Made by a program: the position numbers and the translations under genes. Below, piece after piece: positions 15,549 to 39,290 of a DNA stretch of 64,000 nt. The stretch comes from Acidihalobacter aeolianus. GTDB lineage: Bacteria > Pseudomonadota > Gammaproteobacteria > DSM-5130 > Acidihalobacteraceae. Where the stretch lies: NCBI RefSeq assembly GCF_001753165.1, contig NZ_CP017448.1, forward strand, positions 62,001 through 126,000. The letters run 5' to 3'. The notes beneath the pieces are model-generated. The model did no database searches, was not told the origin of the DNA, and saw only the letters and a program-made list of their open reading frames with translations. How positions within the stretch are numbered: position 1 is the first letter of the stretch; each line of letters begins with the position of its first letter.

Positions 15549-15962
15549 ATGAATACCCCTCTCACGATCGGTGCTTTAGCTCGGCGCGAAGGTGTTACTG
15601 CCGAGGCACTTCGCTATTACGAACGACTGGGGCTCATCGAATCAAGTCGCCGTACGGCCTCGAATTATCGCTTGTATGACGGTGAGGCCAGGCGTCGGTT
15701 ACGGTTTGTAAGACGCGCCCAGGAATTGGGCTTTTCACTGACCCAGATCGGTGAGATGTTGTCACTCCATGCTCGCCCTGAAGCGGATATGAGTGAGGTC
15801 AAGGTTCTGGCCGAGAGCAAGATCGCCGACATTTCCGCCAAGATCAACGATCTGCAACGCATGAAATCAGGGTTGGAAGCCCTCACGGCACATTGCCCAG
15901 GGCACGGCCTGATCGCCGGCTGCCCGATTTTGAATGCATTGCTAAAGGAGGACCCAGAATGA
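15549..15962 (+). CDS. MerR-family metal-responsive regulator
   Basis: A 137-residue regulator. The N-terminal winged helix is [25 protein letters not shown], followed by the dimerisation helix. Its C-terminal metal loop has a cysteine pair ([14 protein letters not shown]), the layout used by Zn/Cd/Pb and Cu(I) sensors. It lies in front of copA with a 4-base overlap (ATGA), and two 19-bp-spacer promoters precede it, so it most likely activates both itself with copA and the divergent small gene. Metal choice (Cu(I) is favoured by the target gene) cannot be settled from the loop alone. ATG 15549 has GGAGCGAG ahead. Confidence 0.9.
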
Positions 15963-18451
15963 GCGCGGTCCCAGAACGGCAATATCAACAAGCCAAACTC
16001 ATGCCCCTGAGATTGGATGTCGAGGGAATGACCTGTGCTTCATGTAGCTCACGCGTTGAGCGAGCATTGAACAAACTGCCTGGCGTTCACGAAGCCGCCG
16101 TCAATCTCGCAACCGAACGAGCTGAACTGGAGTATGACCCGAGCATCGTAACCCCACAGGCGATCTTTTCGACGGTGAGTGAGACCGGCTATACACCCGT
16201 AGACACTGAACTCCAGCTCGCCGTGGAAGGTATGACTTGTGCTTCCTGCGTGGGTCGTGTGGAACGTGCGCTGCAGCGCGTACCCGGCGTGCTTGAGGCC
16301 AGTGTGAATCTGGCAACGGAACAGGCCAAGGTCCGTTTTTTACCCGCCATGACCGATGTGGATGCGCTCACTTCGGCTGTCGCCGAAGCAGGATACAGCG
16401 CGCATACGCTTGACGATGCCAACAGTACCGAAACTGAAGCAGATAAGCGCCAACGAGCGATTCATGCCATGGGTCGTGACGTGCTGATCGCTACAGTGCT
16501 AGGTGTCCTCGTCCTTATTCTGTCTATGGGAGGCACCTTCATCCCTGCCTTCAATCACGCCTTGCGCGCGATCAGTCCATTCCCGCATTTTTGGGATTGG
16601 GTGCAATTCGTTCTCGCGACAGTGGTACTCGTGGTACCTGGAAGGCGTTTCTTTCGCCCCGGCATCATCGCCTACCGCCATCTTTCTCCGGACATGAATT
16701 CCCTGGTGGCAACGGGAACCGGAGCCGCCTGGGCCTATAGTGCTCTGGTACTCATCGCGCCCGCATTGTTCCCGCCAGCGGCTAGACATATTTACTTCGA
16801 TTCGGCCGCCATCGTGATCGCCGCCGTATTGTTCGGCAAGTATCTGGAAGAATTGGCAAAAGGCAGAACCTCGGCGGCAATCCGGAAACTCGTCGATTTG
16901 CAAGCCAAGACAGCCAGAATCCTGGATGCCGATGGCAATGAATCAGAGATCCCGATAGCTCAATTACACGTCGGAGATCGCCTCTCGGTTAGACCTGGCG
17001 AGCGACTTCCCGTTGACGGCAAAGTGGTTGAGGGGCGTGCGCATGTAGATGAATCCATGCTCACGGGCGAGCCCCTACCGGTGGTAAAACAAGCCGGCGA
17101 TGCCGTAGTCGGTGGTACGGTCGATCAGGATGGAAAACTCGTTATCGAGGCAACCTCGGTCGGACGCGACACTGTGCTGGCGCAGATCATCAAGTTGGTG
17201 GAGAGCGCTCAGACCGGCAAATTACCAATCCAGGGTGTTGCCGACCGCGTCGTGCGTGTATTTACGCCGGTAGTGATTGCCATTGCTTTATTAGCCTTTG
17301 TTGTCTGGCTCGTGCTCGGCGCCAATATCAGCGTTGCCTTGGTGGCAGCGGTAGCCGTGCTCGTGGTGGCTTGCCCATGCGCAATGGGCTTGGCGACTCC
17401 GGCGGCGATCATGGTCGGGACCGGTCGCGCGGCTGAACTGGGCGTCCTGTTCCGCAAAGGCGAGGCATTGGAGACGTTCTCGCATGTCGATACGGTATTG
17501 TTCGATAAAACGGGGACTCTGACGGAGGGCCGTCCGACGCTGGTCGATCGAGCTGGGGCGTCGCCAGACGAGGCACTGACTTTGGCTGCTGCCTTGGAAT
17601 CGGCCTCAGAGCATCCATTGGGAAGAGCCATCACCACCGCGGCAAAGGAACAAGGCATTGACGTTCCAGTCGTGCAAGATTTCCGCGCAGTCGCTGGTTA
17701 CGGCATTGAAGGCCGTGTCGGCGAGCGTCTCGTGCGCGTCGGTGCGCGGCGCTTCATGGAACACGAAGGCATCGACCTGGATGAACAGAGTACTCAGGCC
17801 CAAGAACTCGAAGGAGCCGGGCGCACGGTCGTTTATGTGGCGGCTGATGGCAAGCTGCTCGGGCTCCTGGCGATAGCTGATCGCATCAAACCGGAAGCAC
17901 TTGCTGTCGTCAAAGGTCTCATTGCCCGAGGGTTAACCGTCGCCATGGTGACGGGTGATGCACGGCGCACGGCTGAATCTGTTGCCTCTGACCTGGGTAT
18001 TTCCGAAGTGCATGCCGAGGTACTTCCTCAAGACAAGGCGAAGGTGGTCACGGACTTGCAGCAAGCCGGGCGCCGGGTCGCCTTTGTCGGCGATGGTATC
18101 AACGATGCGCCAGCACTGGCCCAGGCGGATGTAGGCATTGCCCTGGCGACGGGGACGGATATTGCCATTGAGGCAGCGGACATCACCCTGACGCGTGGCG
18201 GGCTGGATGAGGTAGTGACTGCGTTGGCTGCGGCACGCAGCACCCTGGGTAATATTCGTGGGAATCTGTTCTGGGCATTTTTTTACAACATCCTCCTGAT
18301 TCCAATTGCAGCTGGCGTAGCTGCCCCGATCGGTATTCACCTTAACCCCATGGTGGCTGGCGTGGCGATGGGACTTTCGTCGGTATTTGTGCTGGGCAAT
18401 AGCTTACGACTCAAGCGATTGAAGGCATTTCATATGCCTGCGACTGCCTGA
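15959..18451 (+). CDS. copA: Copper-exporting P1B-type ATPase
   Basis: An 830-residue Cu(I) efflux pump of the inner membrane. Two N-terminal heavy-metal domains each carry GMTCASC. Eight membrane segments follow, with the transport-site motif [11 protein letters not shown] near residue 470, the phosphorylation site DKTGTLTEG near 516, the TGE actuator loop (LTGEPLP) and the hinge [10 protein letters not shown] near 711. The CPC motif and HMA domains indicate Cu(I)/Ag(I). It overlaps merR by four bases, with DUF302 and a CopZ-type chaperone downstream, giving a complete cytosolic capture-and-export unit. Confidence 0.96.
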
Positions 18452-21810: not shown

Positions 21811-22077
21811 CTGCAGCCCCGAGTTGCCAACCTATTAATTGGATCATCTGGGGTAGGCTTGGTTTGCGTATTTCGGCGCAACGTGACCGGTCATTTCGCT
21901 CGAACGTGACCGCCCGTTTCGGATCAACGTGACCGGCCATTTCGTTTGATCGTGACCGATTTCGGCTCTTTTTCCGAAATCGGCGGTCACGTTCCTCCGT
22001 CATCTCATCCAAGCCACTGGAATTCTTTCACTTATTCCGGCACAACCGCGCTCCTTTGCTCACTCAAGGAGACAGCG

Positions 22078-23616
22078 GTGCCGGCAGCGAGGATTCCAAT
22101 GAAGCATGTCATCGAGGTGCTGCGCCTCAAATACGCAGCCCAACTCAGCCACGCGCAGATCAGCCGCGCCTGCGGCCTGTCCAAGGGCGCGGTCAACAAG
22201 TACGTCAACCTGGCCAGGGCTCAAGGCATCACCTGGCCGTTGCCTGCGGACATGGACGAGGCCGCCCTGGAGGCACGTCTGTTTCCCGCCAAGGCGCCCT
22301 CGAGCCGGTTCGTCGTCCCCGACGGCTTCCAGATCCATCAGGAACTCAAGCGCAAGGGCGTGACCCTGCAACTGCTCTGGGCCGAGTACTGCGCCGCGCA
22401 CGGCGAGCGCGCGTACGCGTATACCCAGTTCTGTCACCATTACCGGCAGTGGCGAGAGCGGCAGAAGCGCAGCCTGCGCCAGCACCATCAGGCCGGGGAA
22501 AAGGTCTTCATCGATTACTGCGGGCCCACGGTCGACATCGTCGACCGTCACACCGGCGAGGTGCGTACCGCACAGATCTTTGTCGGCGTGCTCGGGGCCT
22601 CCAGCTACACCTATGTCGAGGCTACCTGGACCCAGTCGCTGCCCGACTGGATCGCCTCCCACCAGCGCATGCTGGGCTTCTTCGGCGGGGTGCCGGCGCT
22701 GCTGGTGCCGGACAACCTCAAGGCGGCGGTTCAGCGCGCCGAGCGCTACGCGCCGCAGCTCAACGCCACCTATGCCGAGATGGCGGCGCACTACGGCACC
22801 GCCGTGCTGCCGGCGCGGCCCTACAAGCCCAAGGACAAGGCCAAGGTCGAAGTGGCGGTGCAGGTGGTCGAGCGCTGGATCCTGGCGCGGCTGCGCCACC
22901 ACCGCTTCTTCTCGCTGGCCGAGTTGAACCGGGCCATCGCCGCGCTGTTGCCTGAACTGAACGAGCGGCTCTTCCAGGGTCGCACCGAGAGCCGTCGCGA
23001 CCTGTTCGAGAGCCTCGATCGGCCCGCGCTGCGCCCGCTGCCGGGCGAGGCTTACGTCTACGCCGAGTGGCGACGCGCCCGGCCCGGCATCGACTACCAC
23101 GTCGAGGTCGACAAGCGCTGCTACAGCGTCCCGCATGCCCTGGTCGGCCAGGTGCTGGACCTGCGCATCACCGCCACCACGATCGAGGTGCTGCACCGGG
23201 GTCAGCGCGTGGCCCTGCATCCGCGCCACCACGGCCCGGGCCGCTACGTCACCGTCACCGAGCACATGCCCAAGACCCATCAGGTGCACCGTGACTGGTC
23301 ACCCAAGCGCTTCCTGCGCTGGGCGAGCCAGATCGGCCCCAGCACGGCCGAGGTGGTACGCCGCCAGCTGACCGACCGGCCTCATCCGGAGCACGGCTAC
23401 CGCGCCTGCCTGGGGCTGCTCAGCCTCGCTCGGCGTTACCGCCCGGCGCGCCTGGAGGCGGCCTGCGCTCGAGCCTTGGCCATCGACTCGGCCCGTTACC
23501 AGAGCGTCAAGTCGATCCTCGCCCGCGGCCTTGACCAACAGCCCCTCGATCAGAGCCCGGCCCAGGAGGCACTGCCCCTGCACGCCAATGTCCGCGGCGC
23601 CAACTACTATCACTGA
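22078..23616 (+). CDS. istA: IS21-family transposase IstA
   Basis: A 512-residue DDE transposase. An N-terminal helix-turn-helix (LSHAQISRACGLSKGAVNKYV) is followed by the integrase core. The core begins at KVFIDYCGP (first Asp) and continues through VPDNLKAAV (second Asp) to KPKDKAKVEVAVQVVERW (catalytic Glu). GTG 22078 is selected because AAGGAGA precedes it and it gives the family's usual MPAxRIPMK opening. Works with IstB to transpose the element. Confidence 0.93.
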   Translation: MPAARIPMKHVIEVLRLKYAAQLSHAQISRACGLSKGAVNKYVNLARAQGITWPLPADMDEAALEARLFPAKAPSSRFVVPDGFQIHQELKRKGVTLQLLWAEYCAAHGERAYAYTQFCHHYRQWRERQKRSLRQHHQAGEKVFIDYCGPTVDIVDRHTGEVRTAQIFVGVLGASSYTYVEATWTQSLPDWIASHQRMLGFFGGVPALLVPDNLKAAVQRAERYAPQLNATYAEMAAHYGTAVLPARPYKPKDKAKVEVAVQVVERWILARLRHHRFFSLAELNRAIAALLPELNERLFQGRTESRRDLFESLDRPALRPLPGEAYVYAEWRRARPGIDYHVEVDKRCYSVPHALVGQVLDLRITATTIEVLHRGQRVALHPRHHGPGRYVTVTEHMPKTHQVHRDWSPKRFLRWASQIGPSTAEVVRRQLTDRPHPEHGYRACLGLLSLARRYRPARLEAACARALAIDSARYQSVKSILARGLDQQPLDQSPAQEALPLHANVRGANYYH

Positions 23617-23629
23617 GGAGCTCCACGCC

Positions 23630-24373
23630 ATGCTCAATCAACAGACCCGCCAACAGCTGCGCACCCTCAACCTCACCGGCATGCTCGCCGCCCTCGAGCA
23701 ACAACAGGGCCAACCCCAGACCCATGCGCTGTCCTTCGACGAGCGCCTCGCCCTGCTCATCGAGCACGAGGTGCTGCACCGCGAGAACCGACGCCTCACC
23801 CGCCTGCTCAAGGCCGCCCGCCTGCGCGTGCCGGCCTGCGTCGAGGACATCGACTACCACCACCGCCGGGGCCTGGAAAAGCCCCGCATGGCCCAACTGG
23901 CCAGCCTCGACTGGATACACCAGGCACTGAACCTGTGCCTCACCGGACCGACCGGCTGCGGCAAGACCTGGCTCGCCTGCGCACTGGGCAATCAGGCCTG
24001 CCGGCGCGGCCTGTCGGTGCGCTACCTGCGCCTGCCGGCGCTGTTCGAGCAGCTGCGCATCGCCCACGGCGACGGCTCCTACGTCCGGCTCATGGGCCAG
24101 CTCCTCAAAACCGACCTGCTGATCCTCGACGACTGGGGCATCCAAAAGCTCAACACCGCACAGCGCAACGACCTGATGGAAGTCATCGAGGATCGCCACG
24201 GCCGACGCTCCACCCTGATCGCCAGCCAGTTGCCTATCGAACACTGGCACGACTACCTCGGTGAAGCCACCCTGGCCGACGCTATCCTCGACCGCCTCCT
24301 GCACGGCTCACACCGACTCAACCTGACCGGCGAGTCCATGCGCAAGATCCAGGCTCCGGTTGACGGATCGTGA
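23630..24373 (+). CDS. istB: IS21-family helper ATPase IstB
   Basis: A 247-residue AAA+ protein related to DnaC. Walker A is GPTGCGKTWLA near residue 110, Walker B LLILDDWG, and sensor residues follow (LIASQLPIEHW). IstB assembles on DNA and directs IstA to targets. The gene begins 14 bases after istA, with a GAGGAG ribosome binding site inside that gap (ATG 23630). Both proteins are full length. Confidence 0.93.
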   Translation: MLNQQTRQQLRTLNLTGMLAALEQQQGQPQTHALSFDERLALLIEHEVLHRENRRLTRLLKAARLRVPACVEDIDYHHRRGLEKPRMAQLASLDWIHQALNLCLTGPTGCGKTWLACALGNQACRRGLSVRYLRLPALFEQLRIAHGDGSYVRLMGQLLKTDLLILDDWGIQKLNTAQRNDLMEVIEDRHGRRSTLIASQLPIEHWHDYLGEATLADAILDRLLHGSHRLNLTGESMRKIQAPVDGS

Positions 24374-24749: not shown

Positions 24750-26453
24750 GTAACTACTCAGCTAATTCTCAGAGATCGCCAGAGCAAAAGCCGGTAGCTT
24801 GCGATCGAATACTAGGCGCAACGCCTCCGAAGCCGTGACCCCCTGCTTTCGGCAGGTCGATAGATATCCCCGTATGCGGCAAAACATCGCGGCACCCTCC
24901 AGGCTGCGGAAGCAGCCGGAGATCTTCTGCTGCACTTTGGTCATACGGATATCGTTCTCCGCCTGATTGTTCGTGAACGGCACATTGACGTCCACCATGA
25001 AACGCAGCACATCGTCTTCATAGGCCATCAGACGCTCCAGCAGATTGCGGGCCTTGCTCCGCTTGATCCGCCCCCGAGGCTTGTTGTCGGGTGGTTTTTC
25101 CGGCTCAGGGCATTCCAGTTGCCCCGCCTCGAGCACATCTCGGTAGCGCTGCCGGTAAGCATTGGCCTCGGTCAGCGGCAGGATGCCGCCAGCGTTCTCG
25201 ACGGCCTGATGAATCTCTCTGAGCAGCTTGCCCATCGCTTCCGCCCATTGTTGTCCGTCCTGCTCGAATGCTCGTTCCAGTTCGCGCAGGTGGTGGGCAT
25301 TGCACAGGGCATGGGTGCAGTCCCGATAACGGTAATAGGGTTTCCAATGGTCATGACACAGCACACCGCGGAACCGTGGCAGGATCCCGATCGCGTCCAT
25401 CGCCTCCTGGCCTCGCTTACTGTGGACCTGATAATGCGTCCAATCAGCATTGGACAGAGCATGCAGCCAATGGCGTTTGCCATCAATGTTGACCCCGGTC
25501 TCGTCGGCATGAGCGGACACGGCTTTGGCCAATGCCGTTTTGCTGATCGCCTCAAAGGCCGCCAGGCGGGTAAATGCCTCGCGATTGAAGTTCACCAGTG
25601 AACCATCGCTCAAAGGGATGCCCAACTGATCGGCAAAGTAATCCTGGATCCGCTTGTAGGGCAAGAGCTGATATTGGGACAGATAGACGGCATGGGCCTT
25701 GAGGCCGGAACCATACTGCACCTTCTTATCCACCCCTTCCGGGAATGAAGCCACAAAACGTTGGCCTGATTCATTCTCCAGGATCTGCGCCCGATACTCG
25801 GTCACGATCCGGCTGATGTCGATATCAAAAACCTGGCGAGTCTCGAAACCCGCCTCGGTATAGCAGCCTTTCGGCAAGCGACGACGATCGATCTTGAGGA
25901 CCTCGATCTCATCGGGATGCTCGACCGGGCGCAAGGTCTTGCCCACGTGCCCCGGCTGGCCACCGGAAGGTCGGCTTGAGCGCACACGCTGGCTGCGTGG
26001 CCGATTGGGATCCGATGCCGGCGGCTGACTGCTGTTGCGGCTATTGAGCCCGAGACGGTTGAGTAACACGACGAACAACATGAGCATCATCTCGATACTG
26101 GCGCGGAGTGCCGGAGATAGGTCTTTCTCCTGCTCCAGTTGCGCCCTGACCTGTGCCAGGGTGATCTCGATATCGACGCCGTCGATCCGCACGCAAGACT
26201 GCTCCAAAGAAGTAATGAAGCTATTATCTCACGGGTTTTGAAGTGCCAATTTTCTCGTTTGTAAGGCGATCTGGCGGCGTAAAATAATTGACTGACGGTG
26301 GGGCAGTGCCTCGCGTGATGTCGCAAGGAAGACTACGCCTCTGTCGCTTTCGGAGACCAATAATCGCACTCGTTACAGCGCCGCCATATTTTCAAAAAAA
26401 CTACCAAAAACCCTGTCAAGTACTTTTTGTAATTATTTTCACTGAGTAGTTAC
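24750..26453 (-). mobile_element. Complete IS66-family insertion sequence (1704 bp, single-gene type)
   Basis: Perfect 12-bp terminal inverted repeats GTAACTACTCAG (24750-24761) and CTGAGTAGTTAC (26442-26453). An 8-bp target duplication GTTCGTCC (24742-24749 and 26454-26461), the size usual for IS66. It has only the large transposase gene and no tnpA/tnpB, as in the ISBst12 subgroup. All parts are intact. Confidence 0.92.
24762..26207 (-). CDS. IS66-family transposase (TnpC)
   Basis: A 481-residue DDE transposase. An N-terminal helical leucine-rich segment and a basic region SSQPPASDPNRPRSQR precede the catalytic core. The core includes SAHADETGVNIDGKRHW (first Asp), GVLCHDHWKPYYRY (second Asp) and FTNNQAENDIRMTKVQQK (catalytic Glu), with the IS66 C-terminal FRSLEGAAMFCRIRGYLST motif. 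It ends right at the left terminal repeat. It is intact, so the element is potentially mobile. Confidence 0.94.
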   Translation of the reverse strand: MEQSCVRIDGVDIEITLAQVRAQLEQEKDLSPALRASIEMMLMLFVVLLNRLGLNSRNSSQPPASDPNRPRSQRVRSSRPSGGQPGHVGKTLRPVEHPDEIEVLKIDRRRLPKGCYTEAGFETRQVFDIDISRIVTEYRAQILENESGQRFVASFPEGVDKKVQYGSGLKAHAVYLSQYQLLPYKRIQDYFADQLGIPLSDGSLVNFNREAFTRLAAFEAISKTALAKAVSAHADETGVNIDGKRHWLHALSNADWTHYQVHSKRGQEAMDAIGILPRFRGVLCHDHWKPYYRYRDCTHALCNAHHLRELERAFEQDGQQWAEAMGKLLREIHQAVENAGGILPLTEANAYRQRYRDVLEAGQLECPEPEKPPDNKPRGRIKRSKARNLLERLMAYEDDVLRFMVDVNVPFTNNQAENDIRMTKVQQKISGCFRSLEGAAMFCRIRGYLSTCRKQGVTASEALRLVFDRKLPAFALAISEN

Positions 26454-27997: not shown

Positions 27998-28762
27998 ATG
28001 ACGAAGCAAGAAGATTCGAAGTTGGGCGCAAGCGGCCTGAAACTGGTGTCGCCGGTCCCGCTGTATGGCCAGATCAAGGACATGCTGCGCAAGAAGATTC
28101 TCGACGGCAGTTACCCCCCGCACAGCAAGCTGCCTTCGGAAAGCGAGCTGATGGCGCTGTTCGACGTCAGCCGTATCACGGCGCGCCAGGCGATCCGCGA
28201 TCTGCAGAAGGAAGGCCTGGTGTTCACCATCCAGGGCAAGGGCAGCTTCGTCACCAAGCCGAAGGCGGTGCAGGACCTGACCCGCCTGGAAGGCTTCGGC
28301 GAGGCGATGAACAGCAAGGGCTACGAGACCTATTCGCGGCTGATCGGCGCCCGCGAGGTGCCGGCGAGCAGCGAGGTGGCGCACGCCCTGAAGGTGAGCC
28401 GCGACACTCCGGTGATCGAGATCGAGCGCGTGCGCTATCTGAACCGTTCGCCGATCTCGCTCGACGTCAGCTACTTCACGCTGGACGTCGGCCGCCGGCT
28501 GATGGACGAGGATCTGGAGACGCGCGACATCTTCGTGATCCTGGAAAACGACTACGCCTTCCCGCTGGGTGCGGCGGACATCGTGATCAACGCGGCGGTG
28601 GCCGACGAGAAGGAGGCCGAGCTGCTGGCCGTCGAGGCCGGCGCGCCGATCCTGCGCATGGAGCGCCTCACCTTCACCCAGGACGGTCGTCCGATCGACT
28701 ACGAGCACCTGTACTACATCGGTGACGCCTACCAGTACCGCCTGCGCGTCGAACGACGTTAA
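27998..28762 (+). CDS. HutC/FarR-type GntR regulator of the AprAB-like locus
   Basis: A 254-residue regulator. The N-terminal winged helix is SKLPSESELMALFDVSRITARQAIRDLQ with the wing TIQGKGSFV. A UTRA effector domain follows (VIEIERVRYLNRSPISLDVSYF..., ending in YYIGDAYQYRLRVERR). UTRA domains bind small ligands such as histidine-derived, sugar or phosphonate-type metabolites and release DNA. It is the first gene of the locus. Three motif copies at promoters of the locus are its probable operators. The ligand is presumably the imported compound or a product. Confidence 0.9.
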   Translation: MTKQEDSKLGASGLKLVSPVPLYGQIKDMLRKKILDGSYPPHSKLPSESELMALFDVSRITARQAIRDLQKEGLVFTIQGKGSFVTKPKAVQDLTRLEGFGEAMNSKGYETYSRLIGAREVPASSEVAHALKVSRDTPVIEIERVRYLNRSPISLDVSYFTLDVGRRLMDEDLETRDIFVILENDYAFPLGAADIVINAAVADEKEAELLAVEAGAPILRMERLTFTQDGRPIDYEHLYYIGDAYQYRLRVERR

Positions 28763-28781: not shown

Positions 28782-30521
28782 ATGAATGCCCCAACAACGC
28801 CAGCAGAAATCTTCGATACGGACATCCTGGTCATCGGCGGCGGCACGGCGGGCCCGATGGCCGCCGTGGCCAGCAAGGAGCGCAACCCCGAACTGCGCGT
28901 GACGCTGCTCGAAAAGGCCAACGTGAAGCGCAGCGGCGCGATCAGCATGGGCATGGACGGGCTGAACAACGCCATCATCCCCGGCCACGCGACGCCCGAG
29001 CAGTACGTGAAGGAAATCACCGTGGCCAACGATGGCATCGTCAACCAGAAGACGGTGATGGCCTACGCGAAGCGCAGCTTCGACATGATCAACAAGCTGG
29101 ACAGCTGGGGCGTGAAGTTCGAGAAGGACGAGACCGGCGACTACAGCGTGAAGAAGGTCCACCACATGGGCACCTACGTGCTGCCCATGCCGGAGGGCCA
29201 CCACATGAAGAAGATCCTGTACCGCCAGCTGCGCCGCAAGCGCGTCGACGTGGTCAACCGCTTCGTGGTCACCCGTCTGCTCAAGGACGCCAGCGGGCGC
29301 ATCGCCGGCGCGATGATGGTGAACAGCCGCACTGCCGAGATCGCGGTGATCCGCGCCAAGGCGGTGATCCTGGCGACCGGCGCGGCGGGGCGTCTCGGCC
29401 TGCCCGCCTCCGGCTACCTGTTCGGCACCTACGAGAACCCGACCAACGCCGGTGACGGCTACAGCATGGCCTACCGCGCGGGCGCCGAGCTGTCGGGCAT
29501 CGAGTGCTACCAGATCAATCCGCTGATCAAGGACTACAACGGCCCGGCCTGCGCCTACGTGACCGGCCCGCTGGGCGGCTACACGGCCAACTCCAAGGGC
29601 GACCGCTTCATCGAGTGCGACTACTGGAGCGGACAGATGATGCTGGAGTTCTACCGCGAGCTGGAAGGCGGCAAGGGGCCGGTGTTCCTCAAGCTCGACC
29701 ACCTGGCCGAGGAGACGATCCAGGAGATCGAGACCATCCTGCACAGCAACGAGCGCCCGAGCCGCGGTCGCTTCCACGCGCAGCGCGGCACCAACTACCG
29801 CGAGCGCATGGTCGAGATGCACATCTCCGAGATCGGCCTGTGTAGTGGCCACAGCGCGTCCGGCGTGTGGGTGGACGAGAACGCGCGCACCACGGTGCCG
29901 GGGCTGTACGCCGCGGGCGACCTGGCCTGCGTGCCGCACAACTACATGCTCGGCGCCTTCGTCTACGGCGAGATCGCCGGTCACGACGCGGCGGATTACT
30001 GCGCGAGCGTGGACATGCCGGTGCTCGACGAGACCGAGGTCGCCGCCGAGGCCGCGCGCATCCAGGCCCCGCTGAAGGTCGCCGACGGCATCACGCCGTA
30101 CCAGATGGAGTACAAGCTGCGCCGCATGGTGAACGACTACCTGCAGCCGCCGAAGGTCACCACCAAGATGGAAATCGGCCTCGACCGCTTCATGGAGATC
30201 CGCGAGGACATGGCCATGCTGGCCGCGTCCGACCCGCACGACCTGATGCGCGCGATGGAGGTGCACGCCATCCTCGACTGCGCGGAGATGGCCGCACGCG
30301 CCTCGCTGTATCGCACCGAAAGCCGCTGGGGCCTGTACCACTATCGCGTCGACTATCCCGAGCGCAACCAGGACGACTGGTTCTGCCACGTCCAGGTCAA
30401 GCAGGGCGAGAACGGGGACATGACCTGCTTCAAGCGTCCGATCGACCCCTACGTGGTCGAGCTCGACGAGGACGAGACCCAGGCTTACGACAACCTGCGC
30501 ATCGCCGCCACCGCACAGTAA
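28782..30521 (+). CDS. AprA-like flavoprotein (fumarate reductase/APS reductase alpha superfamily)
   Basis: A 579-residue FAD protein. The dinucleotide-binding motif is DILVIGGGTAGPMAA. The stretch KRSGAISMGMDGLNN corresponds to the AprA motif RSGAVAQGLSAIN of dissimilatory APS reductase, ATGAAGRLGLPASG is an FAD-binding turn, and GLYAAGDLACVPHN is the second FAD contact. The C-terminal helical domain ends in a GLYHYRVDYPERN...WFCHVQVK segment that parallels AprA's YYYRGDF...W.C. It is paired with an AprB-like ferredoxin 15 bases downstream. A divergent AprAB-like enzyme is the best description. True APS reduction or oxidation is unproven, since catalytic residues cannot be checked without alignment. 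GAGGT precedes ATG 28782. Confidence 0.85.
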   Translation: MNAPTTPAEIFDTDILVIGGGTAGPMAAVASKERNPELRVTLLEKANVKRSGAISMGMDGLNNAIIPGHATPEQYVKEITVANDGIVNQKTVMAYAKRSFDMINKLDSWGVKFEKDETGDYSVKKVHHMGTYVLPMPEGHHMKKILYRQLRRKRVDVVNRFVVTRLLKDASGRIAGAMMVNSRTAEIAVIRAKAVILATGAAGRLGLPASGYLFGTYENPTNAGDGYSMAYRAGAELSGIECYQINPLIKDYNGPACAYVTGPLGGYTANSKGDRFIECDYWSGQMMLEFYRELEGGKGPVFLKLDHLAEETIQEIETILHSNERPSRGRFHAQRGTNYRERMVEMHISEIGLCSGHSASGVWVDENARTTVPGLYAAGDLACVPHNYMLGAFVYGEIAGHDAADYCASVDMPVLDETEVAAEAARIQAPLKVADGITPYQMEYKLRRMVNDYLQPPKVTTKMEIGLDRFMEIREDMAMLAASDPHDLMRAMEVHAILDCAEMAARASLYRTESRWGLYHYRVDYPERNQDDWFCHVQVKQGENGDMTCFKRPIDPYVVELDEDETQAYDNLRIAATAQ

Positions 30522-30536
30522 CCAGGGAGCACCGAC

Positions 30537-30770
30537 ATGCCGCTTGCCCAGACCAAAACCAGCGTTCCGGTCATCGTGGACAACGAAAAATGCATCGCCG
30601 ACAAGGGGTGCACCGTATGCGTGGACGTCTGCCCGCTGGATGTCCTGGCGATCGATCTGCTCATCAACAAGGCCTACATGAAGTACGACGAGTGCTGGTA
30701 CTGCACGCCGTGCGAGGCCGACTGCCCGACCGGGGCGGTGACGGTGAACATTCCCTATCTGCTGCGCTGA
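30537..30770 (+). CDS. AprB-like two-cluster ferredoxin
   Basis: A 77-residue protein with two CxxC-type cluster motifs: CIADKGCTVCVDVCP and CWYCTPCEADCP. The second closely parallels the C-W-E-C-Y-S-C motif of the AprB beta subunit, and the odd spacing in the first is also AprB-like. It lacks AprB's C-terminal wrapping tail, so it is a minimal beta subunit. It very likely forms a complex with the preceding flavoprotein and passes its electrons on. AGGGAG lies 6 bases before the ATG. Confidence 0.87.
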   Translation: MPLAQTKTSVPVIVDNEKCIADKGCTVCVDVCPLDVLAIDLLINKAYMKYDECWYCTPCEADCPTGAVTVNIPYLLR

Positions 30771-31794: not shown

Positions 31795-32136
31795 ATGACG
31801 TACGTGGTGACCGACAACTGCATCCGCTGCAAGTACACCGACTGCGTGGACGTGTGCCCGGTGGACTGCTTCCACGAGGGGCCGAATTTCCTGGTGATCG
31901 ATCCGGCGGAGTGCATCGACTGCTCCCTGTGCGTGCCCGAATGCCCGGTGGATGCGATCTACGCCGAGGGCGACCTGCCGGACGAATTCGCCGATTTCAT
32001 CAAGATCAACGCGGACCTCGCCGGGCGCTGGCCGGTCATCGCAGCCAGCCAGGAACCGCTGCCGGAGGCGGAGCGCTGGGCCGAGGTGGAAGGCAAGCGA
32101 CAATTTCTGGAGCTGGGCGACTCTGTCGACGTCTAA
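31795..32136 (+). CDS. FdxA-type 7Fe ferredoxin
   Basis: A 113-residue ferredoxin with one [3Fe-4S] and one [4Fe-4S] site: [18 protein letters not shown] and [16 protein letters not shown]. The C-terminal extension ([19 protein letters not shown]) is typical of FdxA. It is likely the soluble electron carrier between the AprAB-like pair and the large flavoprotein encoded next. ATG 31795 follows AAAGGA. Its TAA stop overlaps operator copy 2. Confidence 0.92.
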
Positions 32137-32186: not shown

Positions 32187-35100
32187 ATGGAACAGGTGTT
32201 GACACTGAACTTGCCCGGATTCGGGTACGAGGATCTGTACCGTGCGGAACGTCTGCCGGCGCTCGACCGTGCGTTCGCGACGTATCTTGAGGCCCATGAC
32301 GCGGAGCTGGCGGCGAGCTTCGCGCGTTATCGCGCGCAGGCGGCGTTCGAGGCCGGTGCGGAGTCGGAGCTGCTGATTGCCGTCGCCGGGGTGCTGGAGG
32401 ATTTCATCGCCGAGGTCTTCGGCGTGCGTCGCGAGTGCGACGCGCTGGGCGGACATGCCGGCAGGAGCGCGCTGGTGTGGGCGTTCAAGAACGACTTCGT
32501 GAAGCGCAGCCTGCAGGCCGCCGGCGACGCGCAGGCGCACGACTTCGCGGCGCTCGACGCCTGCGTGGACGCCTGGCTGGGCGAGGTCGGCGGCGCCGAC
32601 CGCGAGTACGCGGTGGCGCAGCTGTGGCGCCATGCGGCGGACGCGGGCGACGAGCAGCGCATCGCCACCCTGGCGGCCTGGGTGCGTGCGGCGGCCACCT
32701 GTGAGGCCGGTCGCGCGGCGACCGCCGGCTGGGGCAGTTTCCGTTTTCCGGCGAGGCGCGATTTCGCCGCGCTGGTGCGCACCGAGTTGCAACCGGCGGC
32801 CCGCGGCTGCGGCGTGGAGGTGAAGCCGGCGGCGCGCCGGCAGCGCGACGGCTTCGCGCTGACCGATATGCGCTACGCGCGCGGCGAGGTGCTCGATCAG
32901 GTGCATTACTGCAAGTTCTGCCATTCGCACCAGGGCGATTATTGTTCCAAGGGCTTTCCGGGGAAGGGCGAGGAAAAGACGCGCAGCAATCCCCTGGGCG
33001 TGCCGCTCGAAGGCTGCCCGCTGGAGGAGAAGATCTCCGAGGCCAATGCGCTGATGCGCGACGGCCACACCCTCGGCGCGCTGGCCACGATCATGATCGA
33101 CAATCCGCTGGTGCCGGCGACCGGGCACCGCATCTGCAACGACTGCATGAAGAGCTGCATCTACCAGAAGCAGGACCCGGTCGACATGCCGCAGATCGAG
33201 ACGCGCATCCTCGACGACGTGCTGAACCTGCCCTGGGGCTACGAGATCTATTTCCTGCTCACCCGCTGGAATCCGCTGAACCGCGAGCGCCCGTACACCC
33301 TGCCCTATCACGGCACCGACGTGCTCTGCGTGGGCGCGGGCCCGGCGGGCTTCAACCTGTCGCATCACCTGCTGCAGGCGGGCTTCGGCGTGGTCGGCGT
33401 GGACGGCCTCAAGATCGAGCCGCTGCCGGCGGATCTGACCGGCGCCGACGGGCGGACGCCGCGGCCGGTGCGCGAGGTGGCGGCGCTGCGCGAGTCGCTG
33501 GACGAGCGCGTGATGGCGGGTTTCGGCGGCGTGGCCGAGTACGGCATCACCGTGCGCTGGGACAAGAATTTCCTCAAGATCATCCACCTGACGCTGGCGC
33601 GCAGCCGGCACTACCGGCTGTACGGCGGCATCCGCTTCGGCGGCACGCTGACCATCGACGATGCCTGGGACTACGGTTTCGAGCACATCGCGCTGGCCAT
33701 CGGCGCAGGCCGGCCGACCATCGTGCCGGTGAAAAACCATCTCGCCCGCGGCATCCGCCAGGCGAGCGATTTCCTGATGGGCCTGCAGCTGACCGGCGCG
33801 GCCAAGCGCGCGAGCCTGGCGAACCTGCAGGTCCGCCTGCCGGCCGTGGTGATCGGCGGCGGGCTGACCGCGATCGACACCGCCACCGAGGTGCAGGCCT
33901 ATTACATCCGCCAGGTGGAAAAGCTGCTCGAACGCTGCGAGACGCTGGGCATGGCCGCGGTTGAGCGGACGCTGGACGGCGAGGAAGCGGCCATCCTGGA
34001 AGAATTCCTCGCCCACGGTCGCGAGGTCAAACGCGAGCGCGAGCGCGCGCGGCGGCTGGGCGTCGCACCGGATTTCGCCGGGCTGGTCGACCGTTGGGGC
34101 GGCGTCACCGTAGCCTACCGGCGGCGCATGGGCGATTCGCCGGCGTATCTGCGCAATCACGAGGAAATCGAAAAGGCGCTGGAGGAAGGCATCCGCTATG
34201 CGGAGGGCCTGAATCCGCGCGAGGCGCTGGTGGATCGCAACGGCCACGTGCGCGCGATGGTCTTCGACGGCGCGGACGGCGAGCGGGTGGATCTGCCCGC
34301 GCGTGCCGTGCTCATGGCCGCGGGCAGCGTGCCCAACACCAGCTACGAGCGCGAACACGCGGACACCTTCGAGATGGACGGACGCTTTTATGCGGCCTAT
34401 GGGCTCGACGGCGAACGCGCCGCGGCCGGCGACCGCGAGGCGGTGTTCACCTCCTACCGCAAGGACGGCCGGCGCATTTCCTTCCTGGGCGACAACCATC
34501 CCGTCTACAGCGGCAGCGTGGTGCGCGCGATGGCCTCGGGCCGGGCGGGAGCGCGGGCGCTCGTGCGCCTGTTCGCGGAACGCATCGGCGACGGCGGATA
34601 CGCGACGAAGTGGGATGCGCTGTGCGCGCGGCTCGACGAAAACCTGCGCCCGCGGATCGTGGCGGTGACGCGCCTGGCCGAGCATCTGGTGAGCATCGCC
34701 GTGCATGCACCGCAGGCCAGCCGCAACTGGCAGCCGGGGCAGGTCTACCGGCTGCAGAATTTCGAGACGCGGGTGGCGCGCGGCCTCGGCACCGCCCTGC
34801 AGATGGAGGGCATGGCGGTGGACGGCGTGCAGGTGGACAAGGCGCAGGGGCGCATCCATCTGCTGATCAACGAGGTGGGCACTTCCAGCCGGCTGGCCGG
34901 TGCCCTCGCCGCGGGCGATCCGGTGGTCCTGATGGGCCCGACCGGCACCTCGCTGCCGATGCCGGCGGGCCAGACGATCACGGTGATCGGCGGACATTCC
35001 GCGGTGACCAGCATGATCGACGGCAGTCACGCCTGGAAGGAGGCGGGCAACCGCGTGCTGATGGTCGCGCACCTGGCCGAACGCCAGCGCGCCGGGGCGC

Positions 35101-35633
35101 TGCAGACGCTGGTGCAGGAAGCGGCCGACGAGGTCGTGTGGGTGCTCGACGGCGACGAGCCGCTGGACGGCCTGCGCGCGCAGGACCGCTGCGTCACGGG
35201 TGGCATGGCAGCCTATCTGCGTGCGGTGGCGGCAGAAGGCGGCGACACCGGCGGGTGGGTCGAGGCCAGCGACCAGTTCGTGATTTCCGACCGACCGGAC
35301 GTGATGGACCTGCTGGTGACCGCGTTCAAGGGCGATCTGGCCGCGCGGCTCAAGCCCGGGGCGCACGGCACCGCCGTGGTCAACAGCCCGATGCAGTGCA
35401 TGCTCAAGGAGGTCTGCGCGCAGTGCCTGTGCCAGCACCGGCGCGGCGACGACCCCGACGCTGCGCCGAAGACCGTGTTTTCCTGCTTCAACCAGCACCA
35501 GCCGCTGTTCGACGTCGATTTCGACAACCTGCGCCTGCGCCAGCGGCAGAACGCGCTGCAGGAGCGCATCGCCTCGCTGTGGCTGAGCCACGTGCAGTCG
35601 TCCGCCCCCACGGCGCTGGCCGAGTCCCGCTAG
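32187..35633 (+). CDS. Large Nfn/GltD-like flavoprotein oxidoreductase, 1148 residues
   Basis: A multidomain electron-transfer protein. Residues 1-230 have no recognised domain. A cysteine-rich section with HYCKFCHSHQGDYC (near 240) and GHRICNDCMKSC (near 315) resembles the Fe-S domain of GltD/NfnB. A two-dinucleotide reductase domain follows, with VGAGPAGFNLSHHLL near 380 and VIGGGLTAIDTATE near 557. From about 820 an FNR/PyrK-like domain has VIGGHSAVTSM near 934 and a C-terminal CMLKEVCAQCLCQ iron-sulfur motif. It looks like an NfnB-NfnA-type fusion that could move electrons between NAD(P)H and ferredoxin, perhaps by bifurcation. A strong terminator follows. Partners are probably the ferredoxins upstream. 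Confidence 0.82.
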   Translation: MEQVLTLNLPGFGYEDLYRAERLPALDRAFATYLEAHDAELAASFARYRAQAAFEAGAESELLIAVAGVLEDFIAEVFGVRRECDALGGHAGRSALVWAFKNDFVKRSLQAAGDAQAHDFAALDACVDAWLGEVGGADREYAVAQLWRHAADAGDEQRIATLAAWVRAAATCEAGRAATAGWGSFRFPARRDFAALVRTELQPAARGCGVEVKPAARRQRDGFALTDMRYARGEVLDQVHYCKFCHSHQGDYCSKGFPGKGEEKTRSNPLGVPLEGCPLEEKISEANALMRDGHTLGALATIMIDNPLVPATGHRICNDCMKSCIYQKQDPVDMPQIETRILDDVLNLPWGYEIYFLLTRWNPLNRERPYTLPYHGTDVLCVGAGPAGFNLSHHLLQAGFGVVGVDGLKIEPLPADLTGADGRTPRPVREVAALRESLDERVMAGFGGVAEYGITVRWDKNFLKIIHLTLARSRHYRLYGGIRFGGTLTIDDAWDYGFEHIALAIGAGRPTIVPVKNHLARGIRQASDFLMGLQLTGAAKRASLANLQVRLPAVVIGGGLTAIDTATEVQAYYIRQVEKLLERCETLGMAAVERTLDGEEAAILEEFLAHGREVKRERERARRLGVAPDFAGLVDRWGGVTVAYRRRMGDSPAYLRNHEEIEKALEEGIRYAEGLNPREALVDRNGHVRAMVFDGADGERVDLPARAVLMAAGSVPNTSYEREHADTFEMDGRFYAAYGLDGERAAAGDREAVFTSYRKDGRRISFLGDNHPVYSGSVVRAMASGRAGARALVRLFAERIGDGGYATKWDALCARLDENLRPRIVAVTRLAEHLVSIAVHAPQASRNWQPGQVYRLQNFETRVARGLGTALQMEGMAVDGVQVDKAQGRIHLLINEVGTSSRLAGALAAGDPVVLMGPTGTSLPMPAGQTITVIGGHSAVTSMIDGSHAWKEAGNRVLMVAHLAERQRAGALQTLVQEAADEVVWVLDGDEPLDGLRAQDRCVTGGMAAYLRAVAAEGGDTGGWVEASDQFVISDRPDVMDLLVTAFKGDLAARLKPGAHGTAVVNSPMQCMLKEVCAQCLCQHRRGDDPDAAPKTVFSCFNQHQPLFDVDFDNLRLRQRQNALQERIASLWLSHVQSSAPTALAESR

Positions 35634-35947: not shown

Positions 35948-36025
35948 GTCGGGAATTGAGGGGCGGTGGGCTTACGCCAGGGTTATAGACATCGTTTATT
36001 CGATCAATCTGGGAGGGTGTGTGTC

Positions 36026-37396
36026 ATGCGAATGCTTGGGAAAAACGGGGTGCGCGCGTCGCTGATGGCGCTTTGCGCCGCAGCAGGGGTCGCCGCGACG
36101 CCTGCGTACAGCAAGACGATCACGATCGGTATCGGCATCCAGAATATGTGCACCGACACGTATCAGGGCGGGACGATCATCCGCGGCCTCAAACTGCTGC
36201 CCAAGTATCTGCCGCACGACGGCAAGTACAAGGACGTCAAGTACAAGATCGTCTGGCGCAACTACGATTCGGGCGGCCCGATCACCAACATGATGATCGC
36301 CGGCAAGCTCGCGTTCGGCGTGATGGGCGATTACCCGCTGGTGGTCAACGGCGCGAAATTCCAGCAGACACGCGGCGAGCGCTCGCTGATGATCTCGTTC
36401 ACCGCCTACAACCTCGACGGCGCCGGCAACGGCATCGTGGTGCCGGTGAAGTCCGACATCTACAGCGTCGATCAGCTCAAGGGCAAGACCGTGTCGGTGC
36501 CGGTGGGCAGCGCGGCCTGGGGCATGCTCTTCAACATGATGAAGGAAAAGCATTACCCCAAGGATTATTTCCACATGATCAACCAGGGCCCGATGGTCGG
36601 CATCGCGGCGATCGCGAACGACAAGGTCGCCGCCCACGCGGACTTCTGTCCGATGTCCGAGCTGATGGAATACAAGGGCACCGGCCGCATGATCTACAAC
36701 GGCGCCGAGGCCGGCATTCCGTATCTGCACGGCGTGGTGGTGCGCAAGTCCTTCGCCGAGAAATATCCTGAAGTCGTGGTCGGTTATCTCGAGGCGCTGA
36801 TCAAGGCCGGCCAGTGGGTGCAGGACGATCCGCAGCATGCCGCGAAGATGATCTCGAAGTGGACGATGATCCCCAAGGAAGTGCTGTACCTGTACTTCAG
36901 CAAGGGCGGCTATCTGACCCCCGATCCGACCTTCAAGCCGAAGTTCATCAAGACCCTGGCCTACGATCACGAGGTCCTGATGAAGTACGCCAATATGCCG
37001 CCGCTCGACTTCAAGCCGTGGGTGGCGCCGCAGTATCTCAAGGCGGCCTACAAGAAGCTCGGTCTGAATTACGAGCAGCAGCTCAAGACCTTCTACCACC
37101 CGAAGGAAAACATCCATCTGCCCGACGAAATCTGGATCAACGGCGAGAAGATCCATCAGTACGCGAACGTGGCCGAGATGCTCAAGAGCTACGCGCAGTA
37201 CAAAAAGGCGGGCAAGACGATCGACGCAACCTACGTGTACGACCAGAAGACCGGTCTGAAGCTGTTCGGCAAGAACGCCTTCTACGTGGAGGACGGCAAG
37301 ACGTTCGATGCCTTCATGCTCAAGAGCGAGGCCGACAAGTACGCCAAGGCGCACGCGGGCAAGGTGATGACCTTCGCGGAGGTCACCAAGGCCTGA
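36026..37396 (+). CDS. ABC-transporter substrate-binding protein with NosL-like C-terminus
   Basis: A 456-residue periplasmic protein with a signal peptide (SLMALCAAAGVAATPAYS). The main domain is of the SsuA/NrtA/TauA type (IGIQNMCTDTYQGG..., KLAFGVMGDYPLVVNG, LKGKTVSVPVGSAAWGML), which binds sulfonates, nitrate, cyanate and similar anions. After about residue 370, a KLFGKNAFYVEDGK...AFMLKSEADKYAKAHAGKVMTF stretch resembles the NosL copper-binding/accessory fold. ATG 36026 has GGGAGGG ahead. The ligand is not evident. The company of an AprAB-like enzyme suggests a sulfur oxyanion or organosulfonate. Confidence 0.83.
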   Translation: MRMLGKNGVRASLMALCAAAGVAATPAYSKTITIGIGIQNMCTDTYQGGTIIRGLKLLPKYLPHDGKYKDVKYKIVWRNYDSGGPITNMMIAGKLAFGVMGDYPLVVNGAKFQQTRGERSLMISFTAYNLDGAGNGIVVPVKSDIYSVDQLKGKTVSVPVGSAAWGMLFNMMKEKHYPKDYFHMINQGPMVGIAAIANDKVAAHADFCPMSELMEYKGTGRMIYNGAEAGIPYLHGVVVRKSFAEKYPEVVVGYLEALIKAGQWVQDDPQHAAKMISKWTMIPKEVLYLYFSKGGYLTPDPTFKPKFIKTLAYDHEVLMKYANMPPLDFKPWVAPQYLKAAYKKLGLNYEQQLKTFYHPKENIHLPDEIWINGEKIHQYANVAEMLKSYAQYKKAGKTIDATYVYDQKTGLKLFGKNAFYVEDGKTFDAFMLKSEADKYAKAHAGKVMTFAEVTKA

Positions 37397-37434: not shown

Positions 37435-37502
37435 GGACGGGCAAAACGGCTGCGGCGGCGTCCGCAGCCGTCGTACCTCACGCAGCGATGACGGGTGATG
37501 CA

Positions 37503-38348
37503 ATGAGCAGCGATGTGCAGACGGATTCCAACATGGTCGTGCGCAAGTTATTCGACCTCGACCGGGAGATGGTGCTGGAGCGGCTGAAGCGCCATTCCAT
37601 TCAGGTGCTCTCCCTGGTCGTCGGCGTGGTGATCTGGCAGATACTGACCGTCAAGGGCGTGCAGTTCATCCTGAATTTCAACAATCTGCCGACACCGGTG
37701 CAGGTCGGGCAGCAGTTTTACCAGCTGATCGGCACGAAGACGTTTTATATCGATATCGGCACCAGTCTGCGCCGTATCGGGATTTCGTTTCTGTTCGCGG
37801 TCGTGATCGGCATGACGGCGGGCATCGCGATGGGGCGTTCGCGCCTCGCGCGCGACATCATCTTTCCCTACATCGAAATCCTGCGCCCGATTCCTGCGGT
37901 GGCATGGATTCCGCTGTCGATCATCATGTGGCCGACCAACGAGGCCAGCATTCTTTTCATCACCTTCCTGGGTGCGGTGTTTCCCATCGCCATCAACACC
38001 ATGCAGGGCGTGCAGCAGACCCCCGAGCTGCTGATCCGCGCGGCGGCCACGCTGGGCGCGAAGCGCTTTTCCGTGCTGCGCCACGTGATCCTGCCGTCGG
38101 CGCTGCCGAGCATCTCGACCGGGCTTGCGGTCGGTATGGGCGTTTCCTGGTTTTCGCTGCTCGCCGGCGAAATCATCAGCGGCCAGTACGGCATCGGCTA
38201 TTTCACCTGGGAATCGTACGAGCTGATCCGCTACCCGGACGTGGTCGTCGGCATGGTCACGATCGGCGTGCTCGGCACGCTGTCGACCAGCCTGGTACGC
38301 CTGGCCGCGCGGCTGCTGCTGCGCTGGGTGCCGCCGGAACAGCGCTGA
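37503..38348 (+). CDS. ABC-transporter permease (SsuC/NrtB/TauC family)
   Basis: A 281-residue inner-membrane permease with about six membrane helices and the EAA-type cytoplasmic loop LLIRAAATLGAKRFSVLRHVILPSALP that contacts the ATPase. It closely follows the sulfonate/nitrate permease pattern (LRPIPAVAWIPLSIIMW; LLAGEIISGQYGIGYF). Two ATGs (37488 and 37503) are possible starts, and neither has a strong ribosome binding site. It forms the importer with the flanking genes. Confidence 0.9.
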   Translation: MSSDVQTDSNMVVRKLFDLDREMVLERLKRHSIQVLSLVVGVVIWQILTVKGVQFILNFNNLPTPVQVGQQFYQLIGTKTFYIDIGTSLRRIGISFLFAVVIGMTAGIAMGRSRLARDIIFPYIEILRPIPAVAWIPLSIIMWPTNEASILFITFLGAVFPIAINTMQGVQQTPELLIRAAATLGAKRFSVLRHVILPSALPSISTGLAVGMGVSWFSLLAGEIISGQYGIGYFTWESYELIRYPDVVVGMVTIGVLGTLSTSLVRLAARLLLRWVPPEQR

Positions 38349-38387: not shown

Positions 38388-39290
38388 ATGAACAATTCAC
38401 CGCAGGTGGTAGCCTTGAACGCCAAACACGAACACGCGCAAGCCGCTCACCGCAACGGCAAGTTTTTCCAGGCCGCGATCACCCTGGACGAGGTCTCGGT
38501 CGCCTTCGGTCCCGAGAAGCGCAGGAAGACCATCCTGTCCTCGCTGACCATGCACGTCGAGCCGGGCGAATTCGTGGCCCTGCTCGGCCCAAGCGGCTGC
38601 GGCAAGTCGACCGTGCTCAACCTCGTCGCCGGCTACCTGAAGCCGAGCACCGGCGCCGTGCTGGTGGACAGCAAGCCCGTGGCCGGGCCTGATCCGCAGC
38701 GCGGGATGGTGTTCCAGCAGCACACGCTGTTTCCGTGGAAGACGGTGCAGGAAAACGTCGAATTCGGCCCGAAGATGGCCGGTCAGCCGAAGGCGACCGC
38801 CGAGGCCACGGCGCGCACCTTTCTCGACATGGTGGGTCTCAGCAAGGTCGCCGACCACTATCCGTCGCAGCTCTCGGGCGGCATGCAGCACCGCGTGGAG
38901 ATCGCGCGCGCGCTGGCCAACTATCCGGGTGTGCTGCTGATGGACGAACCCTTCGGCGCGCTCGACGCGCAGACGCGGCTGGTGATGCAGGACGGTCTGC
39001 TCAAGCTGTGGGAACAGCTCAAGCCGACGGTGCTGTTCGTGACCCACGACATCGACGAGGCGGTGCTGCTGGCCGACCGCATCCTGATCATGGGCGTCTC
39101 GCCCGGCCGGGTGATTTCCGAGATCGAGGTCGACATCGAGCGTCCGCGCAACGTGCGCGCGATGACCGATCCGCGTTTCGGCCGCCTCAAGGGTCAGTGT
39201 CTGGACCTACTGGAGCGCGAGAGCCGCAAGGCCTTCGGCCTGCAGGACGACGACGATACGGACGACGAGGCCAGCCCGCTGCGCGCGTAA
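38388..39290 (+). CDS. ABC-transporter ATPase (SsuB/NrtD/TauB family)
   Basis: A 300-residue ATPase with Walker [13 protein letters not shown] near residue 70, Q-loop [11 protein letters not shown], signature [15 protein letters not shown], Walker [14 protein letters not shown] and switch [15 protein letters not shown]. An acidic C-terminal tail ([10 protein letters not shown]) follows. It is the last gene of the locus, 39 bases after the permease. An importer with this ATPase type usually takes up sulfonate, nitrate, cyanate or bicarbonate-like anions. Confidence 0.93.

Follow-up and report, generated by a model that had tools for sequence, protein, structure and literature searches.

A NosL-fold domain without the copper motif at the C-terminus of an ABC-type binding protein from Acidihalobacter aeolianus

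The locus and the family of fused proteins

The window, a stretch of 64,000 nucleotides of contig NZ_CP017448.1 of Acidihalobacter aeolianus, harbors a gene cluster that starts with a GntR regulator and continues with an AprA-like flavoprotein, an AprB-like ferredoxin, a HEAT-repeat protein, the ferredoxin FdxA, an 1148-aa FAD/NAD(P) protein and, finally, the binding protein, permease and ATPase of an ABC transporter. The features of the cluster, including the parts of the binding protein, are as follows.

27998-28762, plus strand: GntR/UTRA regulator at the head of the cluster (Pfam)
28782-30521, plus strand: APS-reductase-alpha-like flavoprotein (NCBIfam NF006131, 1081 bits, cut-off 587)
30537-30770, plus strand: APS-reductase-beta-like two-cluster ferredoxin, 77 aa
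30780-31733, plus strand: HEAT-repeat protein (Pfam)
31795-32136, plus strand: ferredoxin FdxA (NF045490, 161.6 bits, cut-off 135)
32187-35633, plus strand: 1148-aa FAD/NAD(P)-type oxidoreductase, PRK06567-like, a possible electron donor module
36026-37396, plus strand: 456-aa binding protein ending in a NosL-fold domain (ORF, Pfam and profile comparison)
36026-36112, plus strand: probable signal peptide, residues 1-29 (by inspection)
36113-37015, plus strand: type II binding-protein core, approximately residues 30-330, with Q39, G83 and H235 invariant
37016-37105, plus strand: linker, approximately residues 331-360 (alignment)
37106-37393, plus strand: residues 361-456, a NosL/MerB-fold domain in which the CxM copper motif is absent
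37488-38348, plus strand: ABC permease, TauC/SsuC-like (BPD_transp_1, 89 bits)
38388-39290, plus strand: ABC ATPase, SsuB/TauB-like (Pfam, NCBIfam)

The binding-protein ORF is read from the ATG at 36026 to the stop codon at 37394-37396; the mechanically delimited ORF opens further upstream, at a GTG at 35966. A preliminary description of this DNA had proposed a binding protein fused to a NosL-like C-terminal domain, and such a fusion is indeed encoded at this place, its fold being borne out by sequence as well as by a structure model (see below). The boundaries need small corrections. The first ~370 residues had been assigned to the SsuA/NrtA pattern; the protein is of the SsuA/TauA type, and its binding-protein portion ends at around residues 330-350 and is followed by a variable linker, which in another branch of the family is longer and contains one Cys according to the alignment. 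Conversely, the NosL-like part is not limited to the final 85 residues but comprises about 96 (residues 361-456). Pfam NMT1 matches residues 131-272 of the binding protein with 39.7 bits (cut-off 20.5). As judged by eye, the window protein has no classical lipobox. The N-terminus of one relative (L026, 1402-2847) displays, again by eye, a lipobox-like SIIGC motif, and some family members may thus be lipoproteins.

Of 398 genomes sampled from the phylum, 20 encode a relative of the protein, as do three of 56 near-relative genomes; the genome of origin is included in both counts. The threshold applied (E <= 1e-30) can be reached by the core alone, but the matches in all of these genomes (20/20 and 3/3) extend to query residue 452 or beyond. 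Tailed members come from five phyla, tails being found also in Pseudanabaena (Cyanobacteria) and Tsukamurella (Actinobacteria), and three Planctomycetota or Bacteroidales MAGs carry relatives at 57-58%. Among plasmids, 312 records contained a match of any kind and 41 of these a match covering at least 80% of the query; no relatives were found on viral contigs. The IS-interrupted copy in L029 apart, the tail is retained in all 33 members examined, a set that was picked by whole-protein similarity and therefore favors tailed proteins. Core and tail distances are in close agreement (Mantel r 0.92, none of 2000 permutations as high, n=33), and the tail is the more variable of the two, with a mean pairwise identity of 40% versus 54% for the core. 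Both features would be expected if a tail without catalytic function had been acquired once and long ago, and a single ancient fusion event is the simplest reading of these sequences.

The gene cluster is likewise conserved and recurs in soil bacteria, symbiotic bacteria and acidophiles. An AprA-like gene is present in 25 of 28 other loci (as a fragment in one of them, L029), and AprB-like and HEAT genes in 24; the three loci in which no AprA-like gene was found are L002, which is a 4-kb contig, L030 and L079, and the neighborhood of the closest relative, L025, lies outside these counts. GntR/UTRA homologs adjoin the AprA-like gene in several other loci. When neighbors were counted over 32 loci, including the window and the source locus of each query, a DUF971-domain gene was found in 22 (three of them query source loci), a ferredoxin-NADP reductase in 10 and relatives of YeiH ('putative sulfate export') in six, source locus L086 included, and a minority of the 32 contained other sulfur-related neighbors, namely an arylsulfatase (1), SulP (2), TSUP (1) or flavin monooxygenases (2). 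The query LysR_L086 matched all 32 loci; these hits were taken as ABC ATPase matches and ignored. In L030, genes for an arylsulfatase, a formylglycine-generating enzyme and SulP follow the transporter, and there is no reductase block. In Pseudanabaena (L086), a YeiH-family gene (219.9 bits, below the cut-off of 232.6) lies next to the block, together with a gene that is annotated as sulfite exporter and is scored weakly by NCBIfam.

Just upstream of the cluster in the window, an IS21-like transposase/helper pair (21946-23616 and 23531-24373) and an IS66-like transposase (24762-26207, minus strand) were recognized by eye. Since similar clusters are carried by Acidithiobacillus caldus plasmids, the block may be mobile. 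On those plasmids (L029, 11944-14114, and L084, 17767-20324), the gene of the binding protein is broken up, by interruption or fragmentation, next to the ISL3 element ISAtc1; in plasmid pLAtc3 (L029) the match stops at residue 322 beside the ISL3 element, and only a fragment of the flavoprotein is left.

Fold and metal ligands of the C-terminal domain

Against the Pfam NosL profile (PF05573), the whole protein scores 27.3 bits (curated cut-off 24) over residues 353-455, and the last 91 residues alone (366-456) score 28.7 bits, so that the C-terminal part exceeds the family cut-off by itself. The match covers profile positions 17-128 of 131, whereas the matches of the best true NosLs begin between positions 1 and 7. 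Of 33 family members, 22 contain NosL by Pfam at E <= 0.01; the single-sequence score of the other 11 is weaker. When a profile of 29 tails was aligned with 30 true NosLs, hhalign returned a probability of 99.0 over 131 columns, with an E-value of 6e-17 that holds for that one comparison. An AlphaFold2 model of residues 348-456, computed together with three relatives, has a mean pLDDT of 87.4 and shows two beta-beta-alpha-beta units, as in NosL itself (7og7, 2hpu) and in the NosDFYL entries (7osf, 7osg). Its only PDB match with E < 0.001 in Foldseek was NosL 7og7, followed by four NosDFYL entries, and VIA also ranked 7og7 at the top (Z 10.9, rmsd 2.7 over 95 residues), ahead of NosDFYL (8.9-9.6) and the NMR structure of NosL, 2hpu (8.6); MerB reached Z 8.1, other MerB entries 5.9-6.3, and unrelated chains appeared from 5.5. 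The NosL fold of the tail is well beyond chance. As the preliminary description had anticipated, it is thus NosL topology that leads both structural lists, rather than that of an extension of the binding-protein lobes. A full-length model based on four sequences (pLDDT 41.7, pTM 0.35) was discarded and offers no basis for domain packing.

The tail nevertheless differs from NosL in several respects. NosL is a stand-alone lipoprotein with an N-terminal Cys anchor, whereas the tail is fused to a binding protein of ~360 residues. NosL has been reported to bind Cu(I), probably via a CxM motif, and to contain one other Met that is absolutely conserved (PMC6530538). We found CxM in each of the 30 best-scoring NosL matches from 299 genomes, a count that covers these best matches. 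To find their reading frames, we used a profile made from 19 of the 30, chosen by a pattern that itself includes CxM. In contrast, CxM occurs in none of the tails, neither in the wider set (0/33) nor in that used for hhalign (0/29), and the second NosL Met loop (GGMG, AMG; [GA]MG) is missing from the tails in the hhalign alignment; the regular expression for this loop matched one of 29 tails, that of L025, by eye a chance match. The conserved tail positions are W370 (33/33 tails), G396, Y403, G410 and K412 (32/33 each for the latter two), and A436, with no Cys, His or Met; as read from the alignment, none of these residues is a usual copper ligand. The window tail contains no Cys at all. In one family branch, a Cys (FCKKPI) lies close to where NosL has its motif, one column off in the hhalign alignment, and a second occurs in SSxxCTL; the window branch has neither. 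The metal link that had been suggested for the tail in the preliminary description is therefore not upheld: CxM is found in 0/33 tails and 30/30 NosLs, the loop Met is gone, and no Cys, His or Met is conserved. Some periplasmic role of the tail, raised as the other option, is possible and is part of our own reading as well.

No connection with N2O reductase came to light. No nos genes are listed in the annotated neighborhoods seen, and no NosL was found elsewhere in the own genome, where the tail is the sole NosL match. Among other genomes encoding the protein, five (G000, G054, G058, G062 and G095) likewise match NosL through the tail alone, and two (G111 and G146) have a strong NosL match elsewhere. 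A search of the own genome for NosZ (PF18764) gave no match but was uninformative, as no control matched either. At 15893-18451, ~18-20 kb upstream of the binding protein, a P-type ATPase of the copper type was recognized by eye; it contains two CASC motifs. The NosL/MerB fold has been traced to treble-clef zinc fingers that were duplicated and lost their zinc, which makes a metal-free member plausible, and the loss or reuse of metal sites is a described theme within this fold group (PMC4999995). The present tail shares the duplicated fold of the group; it differs in being joined to a binding protein and in having no NosL copper motif and, in the window, no Cys.

The cargo site and the flavoprotein

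The best solved relatives of the family profile are TauA 6ssy (6e-26) and SsuA 3uif (8e-22); the fourth-best, 3e4r, was deposited as a nitrate transport protein. With SsuA and TauA the window protein shares the type II core and the SsuBC/TauBC-type permease and ATPase encoded alongside, and it differs from them by ~100 extra residues that form the NosL-fold domain. Neither of the corresponding NCBIfam models reaches its cut-off, TIGR01728 (SsuA) scoring 95.2 bits (cut-off 163.5) and TIGR01729 (TauA) 63.5 bits (cut-off 304). SsuA-type relatives include nitrate and bicarbonate binders. For the comparison of binding sites, TauA residues carry what we take to be the numbering of the E. coli protein on the aligned chain.

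In TauA, the sulfonate has been reported to be contacted by the side chain of Gln30 and by the main chain of Gly61, Gly79 and Thr132, whereas Glu106, Thr132 and Asp205 bind the amine (PMC6906117). The counterparts of Gln30 (Q39, aligned via chain 3e4r) and Gly61 (G83, profile alignment to TauA) are Gln and Gly, respectively, in 34 of 34 members. The position of Gly79 (G101) is Gly in 20 members and Ala in 14, and that of Thr132 (A163) is Ala in 19, Thr in 14 and Ser in one; the adjacent S162 pairs with TauA Ser131 and was not counted as a sulfonate ligand. Both amine-binding acids of TauA, Glu106 and Asp205, are replaced, by N135 and H235 in 34/34 members each according to the profile alignment, while a single-sequence alignment places I137 rather than N135 opposite Glu106. 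The anion side of the site thus appears compatible with a sulfonate, and both acids that would hold taurine's amine are gone. The retained Gln is not diagnostic, however, because 3e4r has a Gln in the same alignment position. In addition to the invariant H235, H204 is kept in 33 of 34 members. Cys42 (36149-36151) and Cys208 (36647-36649), which likely line the cleft, are present in six and seven of the 34 members, respectively, the window branch included, and would not be needed by a plain sulfonate binder.

The model that matches the flavoprotein, NF006131, bears only the name 'fumarate reductase/succinate dehydrogenase flavoprotein subunit', and the aprA model gives 178.9 bits, below its cut-off of 641.75. 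The closest solved chain is the alpha subunit of the PAPS reductase of Methanothermococcus thermolithotrophicus, 8a8o (2.9e-67, residues 11-566). The window protein shares 59-78% identity with its AprA-like counterparts from 29 loci. The active-site positions of AprA are Asn74, Arg265 and His398. The first and the last of these are kept in 30/30 AprA-like proteins (the pairing of His398 was read from the 8a8o alignment), whereas the position of Arg265 is Leu in all 30 and Arg in 8a8o. This substitution implies that the flavoprotein is not an APS reductase and that it may not act on sulfur; as judged from its sequence, it is APS-reductase-like. AprAB (2fja) and 8a8o thus have in common with the window pair the association of a flavoprotein with a two-cluster ferredoxin and the two retained positions, and differ from it by the Leu and the score far below the aprA cut-off. 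The best NCBIfam match of the small ferredoxin is aprB (TIGR02060; 37.6 bits, below the cut-off of 135.65). For the PAPS reductase of Methanothermococcus thermolithotrophicus, an attack of the flavin N5 on sulfur has been proposed (PMC10322725).

Among the NCBIfam matches of the ATPase and permease are SaoA (243 bits, cut-off 360) and SaoP (140 bits, cut-off 295), and SaoX matches the binding protein with 28 bits (cut-off 300). An organometal reading of the MerB/Sao kind was considered on account of the shared MerB fold and the SaoA and SaoP matches, and was abandoned, as no Sao score reaches its cut-off and Cys is absent from the window tail.

Possible function of the fused importer

We propose, with a probability of roughly one half, that the cluster specifies an importer whose cargo, an anion resembling a sulfonate or sulfate ester, feeds a ferredoxin-driven, APS-reductase-like enzyme, and that the tail serves as a metal-free module for docking or closure. 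The periplasmic binding protein of this SsuABC/TauABC-type importer would capture an oxidized-sulfur anion, either a sulfonate or a sulfate ester. The NosL/MerB-fold tail, presumably fused once long ago, would act as a metal-free structural module that may pack beside the binding cleft, dock the loaded protein on the permease, or both. Lacking a copper site, the tail is probably a structural or docking part. Docking on the permease is proposed by analogy, since NosL docks on the NosDFY transporter and occurs in complex with it according to the titles of PDB entries. After import, the APS-reductase-like flavoprotein and the AprB-like ferredoxin would take over the cargo; electrons could pass from NAD(P)H through FdxA and the large FAD protein to this AprA/AprB-like pair, which would then release sulfite. 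A bolder and rather doubtful version would have it that the cluster accomplishes an oxygen-independent and hitherto undescribed stripping of sulfite by attack of the flavin N5 on R-SO3 or R-O-SO3, fed by NAD(P)H and ferredoxin and requiring neither oxygenases nor sulfatases, with a metal-free NosL-fold domain for docking. Searches of an open-licence library turned up neither a report of a binding protein with a NosL tail nor a published test of the substrate of the cluster.

The nature of the cargo could well be different, and we regard it as a tentative but serious possibility that the importer takes up nitrate, bicarbonate, an organic anion, or a metalloid or organometal, the flavoprotein pair being the oxidoreductase for that compound. 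A chain deposited as a nitrate transport protein ranks fourth among the solved relatives, and nitrate and bicarbonate binders belong to the SsuA type; the SaoA and SaoP matches and the universal Leu at the position of AprA Arg265 point in the same direction, and H235, H204 and, in the window branch, Cys42 and Cys208 could hold a soft ligand. The family is nonetheless closest to TauA and SsuA among solved structures and has kept two residues of the sulfonate site of TauA, the Gln and the first Gly; SaoX hardly matches the binding protein, and aprB is the best match of the small ferredoxin, all of which speaks against another cargo.

As for the tail, it might be nothing but a stabilizing extension that has no partner and no effect on transport. 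Its evolution, faster than that of the core, would fit such a role, but its retention in 33/33 members from five phyla (in a sample favoring tailed members) and the near-complete conservation of W370, G410 and K412 make it unlikely. Very improbable is that the tail still handles metal, binding Cu(I) or another metal through residues other than CxM and thereby coupling capture to metal delivery. To be sure, the domain has the fold of a copper chaperone, a copper-type ATPase gene lies upstream, and one branch has a Cys near the NosL motif and another in SSxxCTL. However, these two Cys could equally be a disulfide pair, and the complete lack of CxM and of any conserved Cys, His or Met in the tails, the Cys-free tail of the window and the lack of nos genes from the annotated neighborhoods seen are difficult to reconcile with metal delivery. 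Whatever its partner, a metallochaperone fold that lacks its metal motif and is part of a nutrient importer in five phyla suggests that the NosL/MerB fold can serve beyond metal handling, and a name derived from the NosL annotation would mislead for this tail. If the proposed uptake of a sulfur anion is true, the cluster would represent a widespread route for scavenging organic sulfur.

The nearest known parallel is the asfRABC system of Pseudomonas putida S-313, in which a binding protein, an ABC transporter and a reductase/ferredoxin have been reported to be needed for aromatic sulfonates (PMC4267179). Both clusters encode a binding protein, an ABC transporter and a reductase/ferredoxin pair together; they differ in the regulator, which is the LysR-type asfR in asf and a GntR protein at the start of the window cluster. 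In Cupriavidus metallidurans, AsfA/AsfB have been given as Rmet_4334/5 (PMC2864759). The candidate AsfA of strain CH34 (L082, 28217-29863), assigned from its place and neighbors as the record carries no annotation, is 27% identical to the window flavoprotein (tblastn) and scores 56 bits with NF006131 (cut-off 587), and the adjacent binding protein, at 348 aa, leaves no room for a tail. The first match on a C. metallidurans megaplasmid (30%, 549-aa ORF) was rejected as AsfA, being by eye of the SdhA/FrdA type with a 2Fe-2S partner. An equation of the window flavoprotein with AsfA was likewise given up, since the CH34 candidate with fitting neighbors is only 27% identical, and asf was kept as a parallel.

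Some minor observations concern the other redox proteins of the cluster. The 1148-aa protein scores 579 bits with PRK06567 (cut-off 1072) and has no Pfam match at E 0.1 before residue 275; a relative at 56% is encoded in L081, and plasmid pTcM1 (L084) carries a gene for a similar-sized FAD-dependent oxidoreductase after fdxA. In Tsukamurella (L087, 8959-11640), a single annotated gene of 2682 bases spans the match to the flavoprotein and is long enough to include the HEAT part as well, and NCBIfam PRK13800, which has the same flavoprotein plus HEAT arrangement, matches the two window proteins separately.
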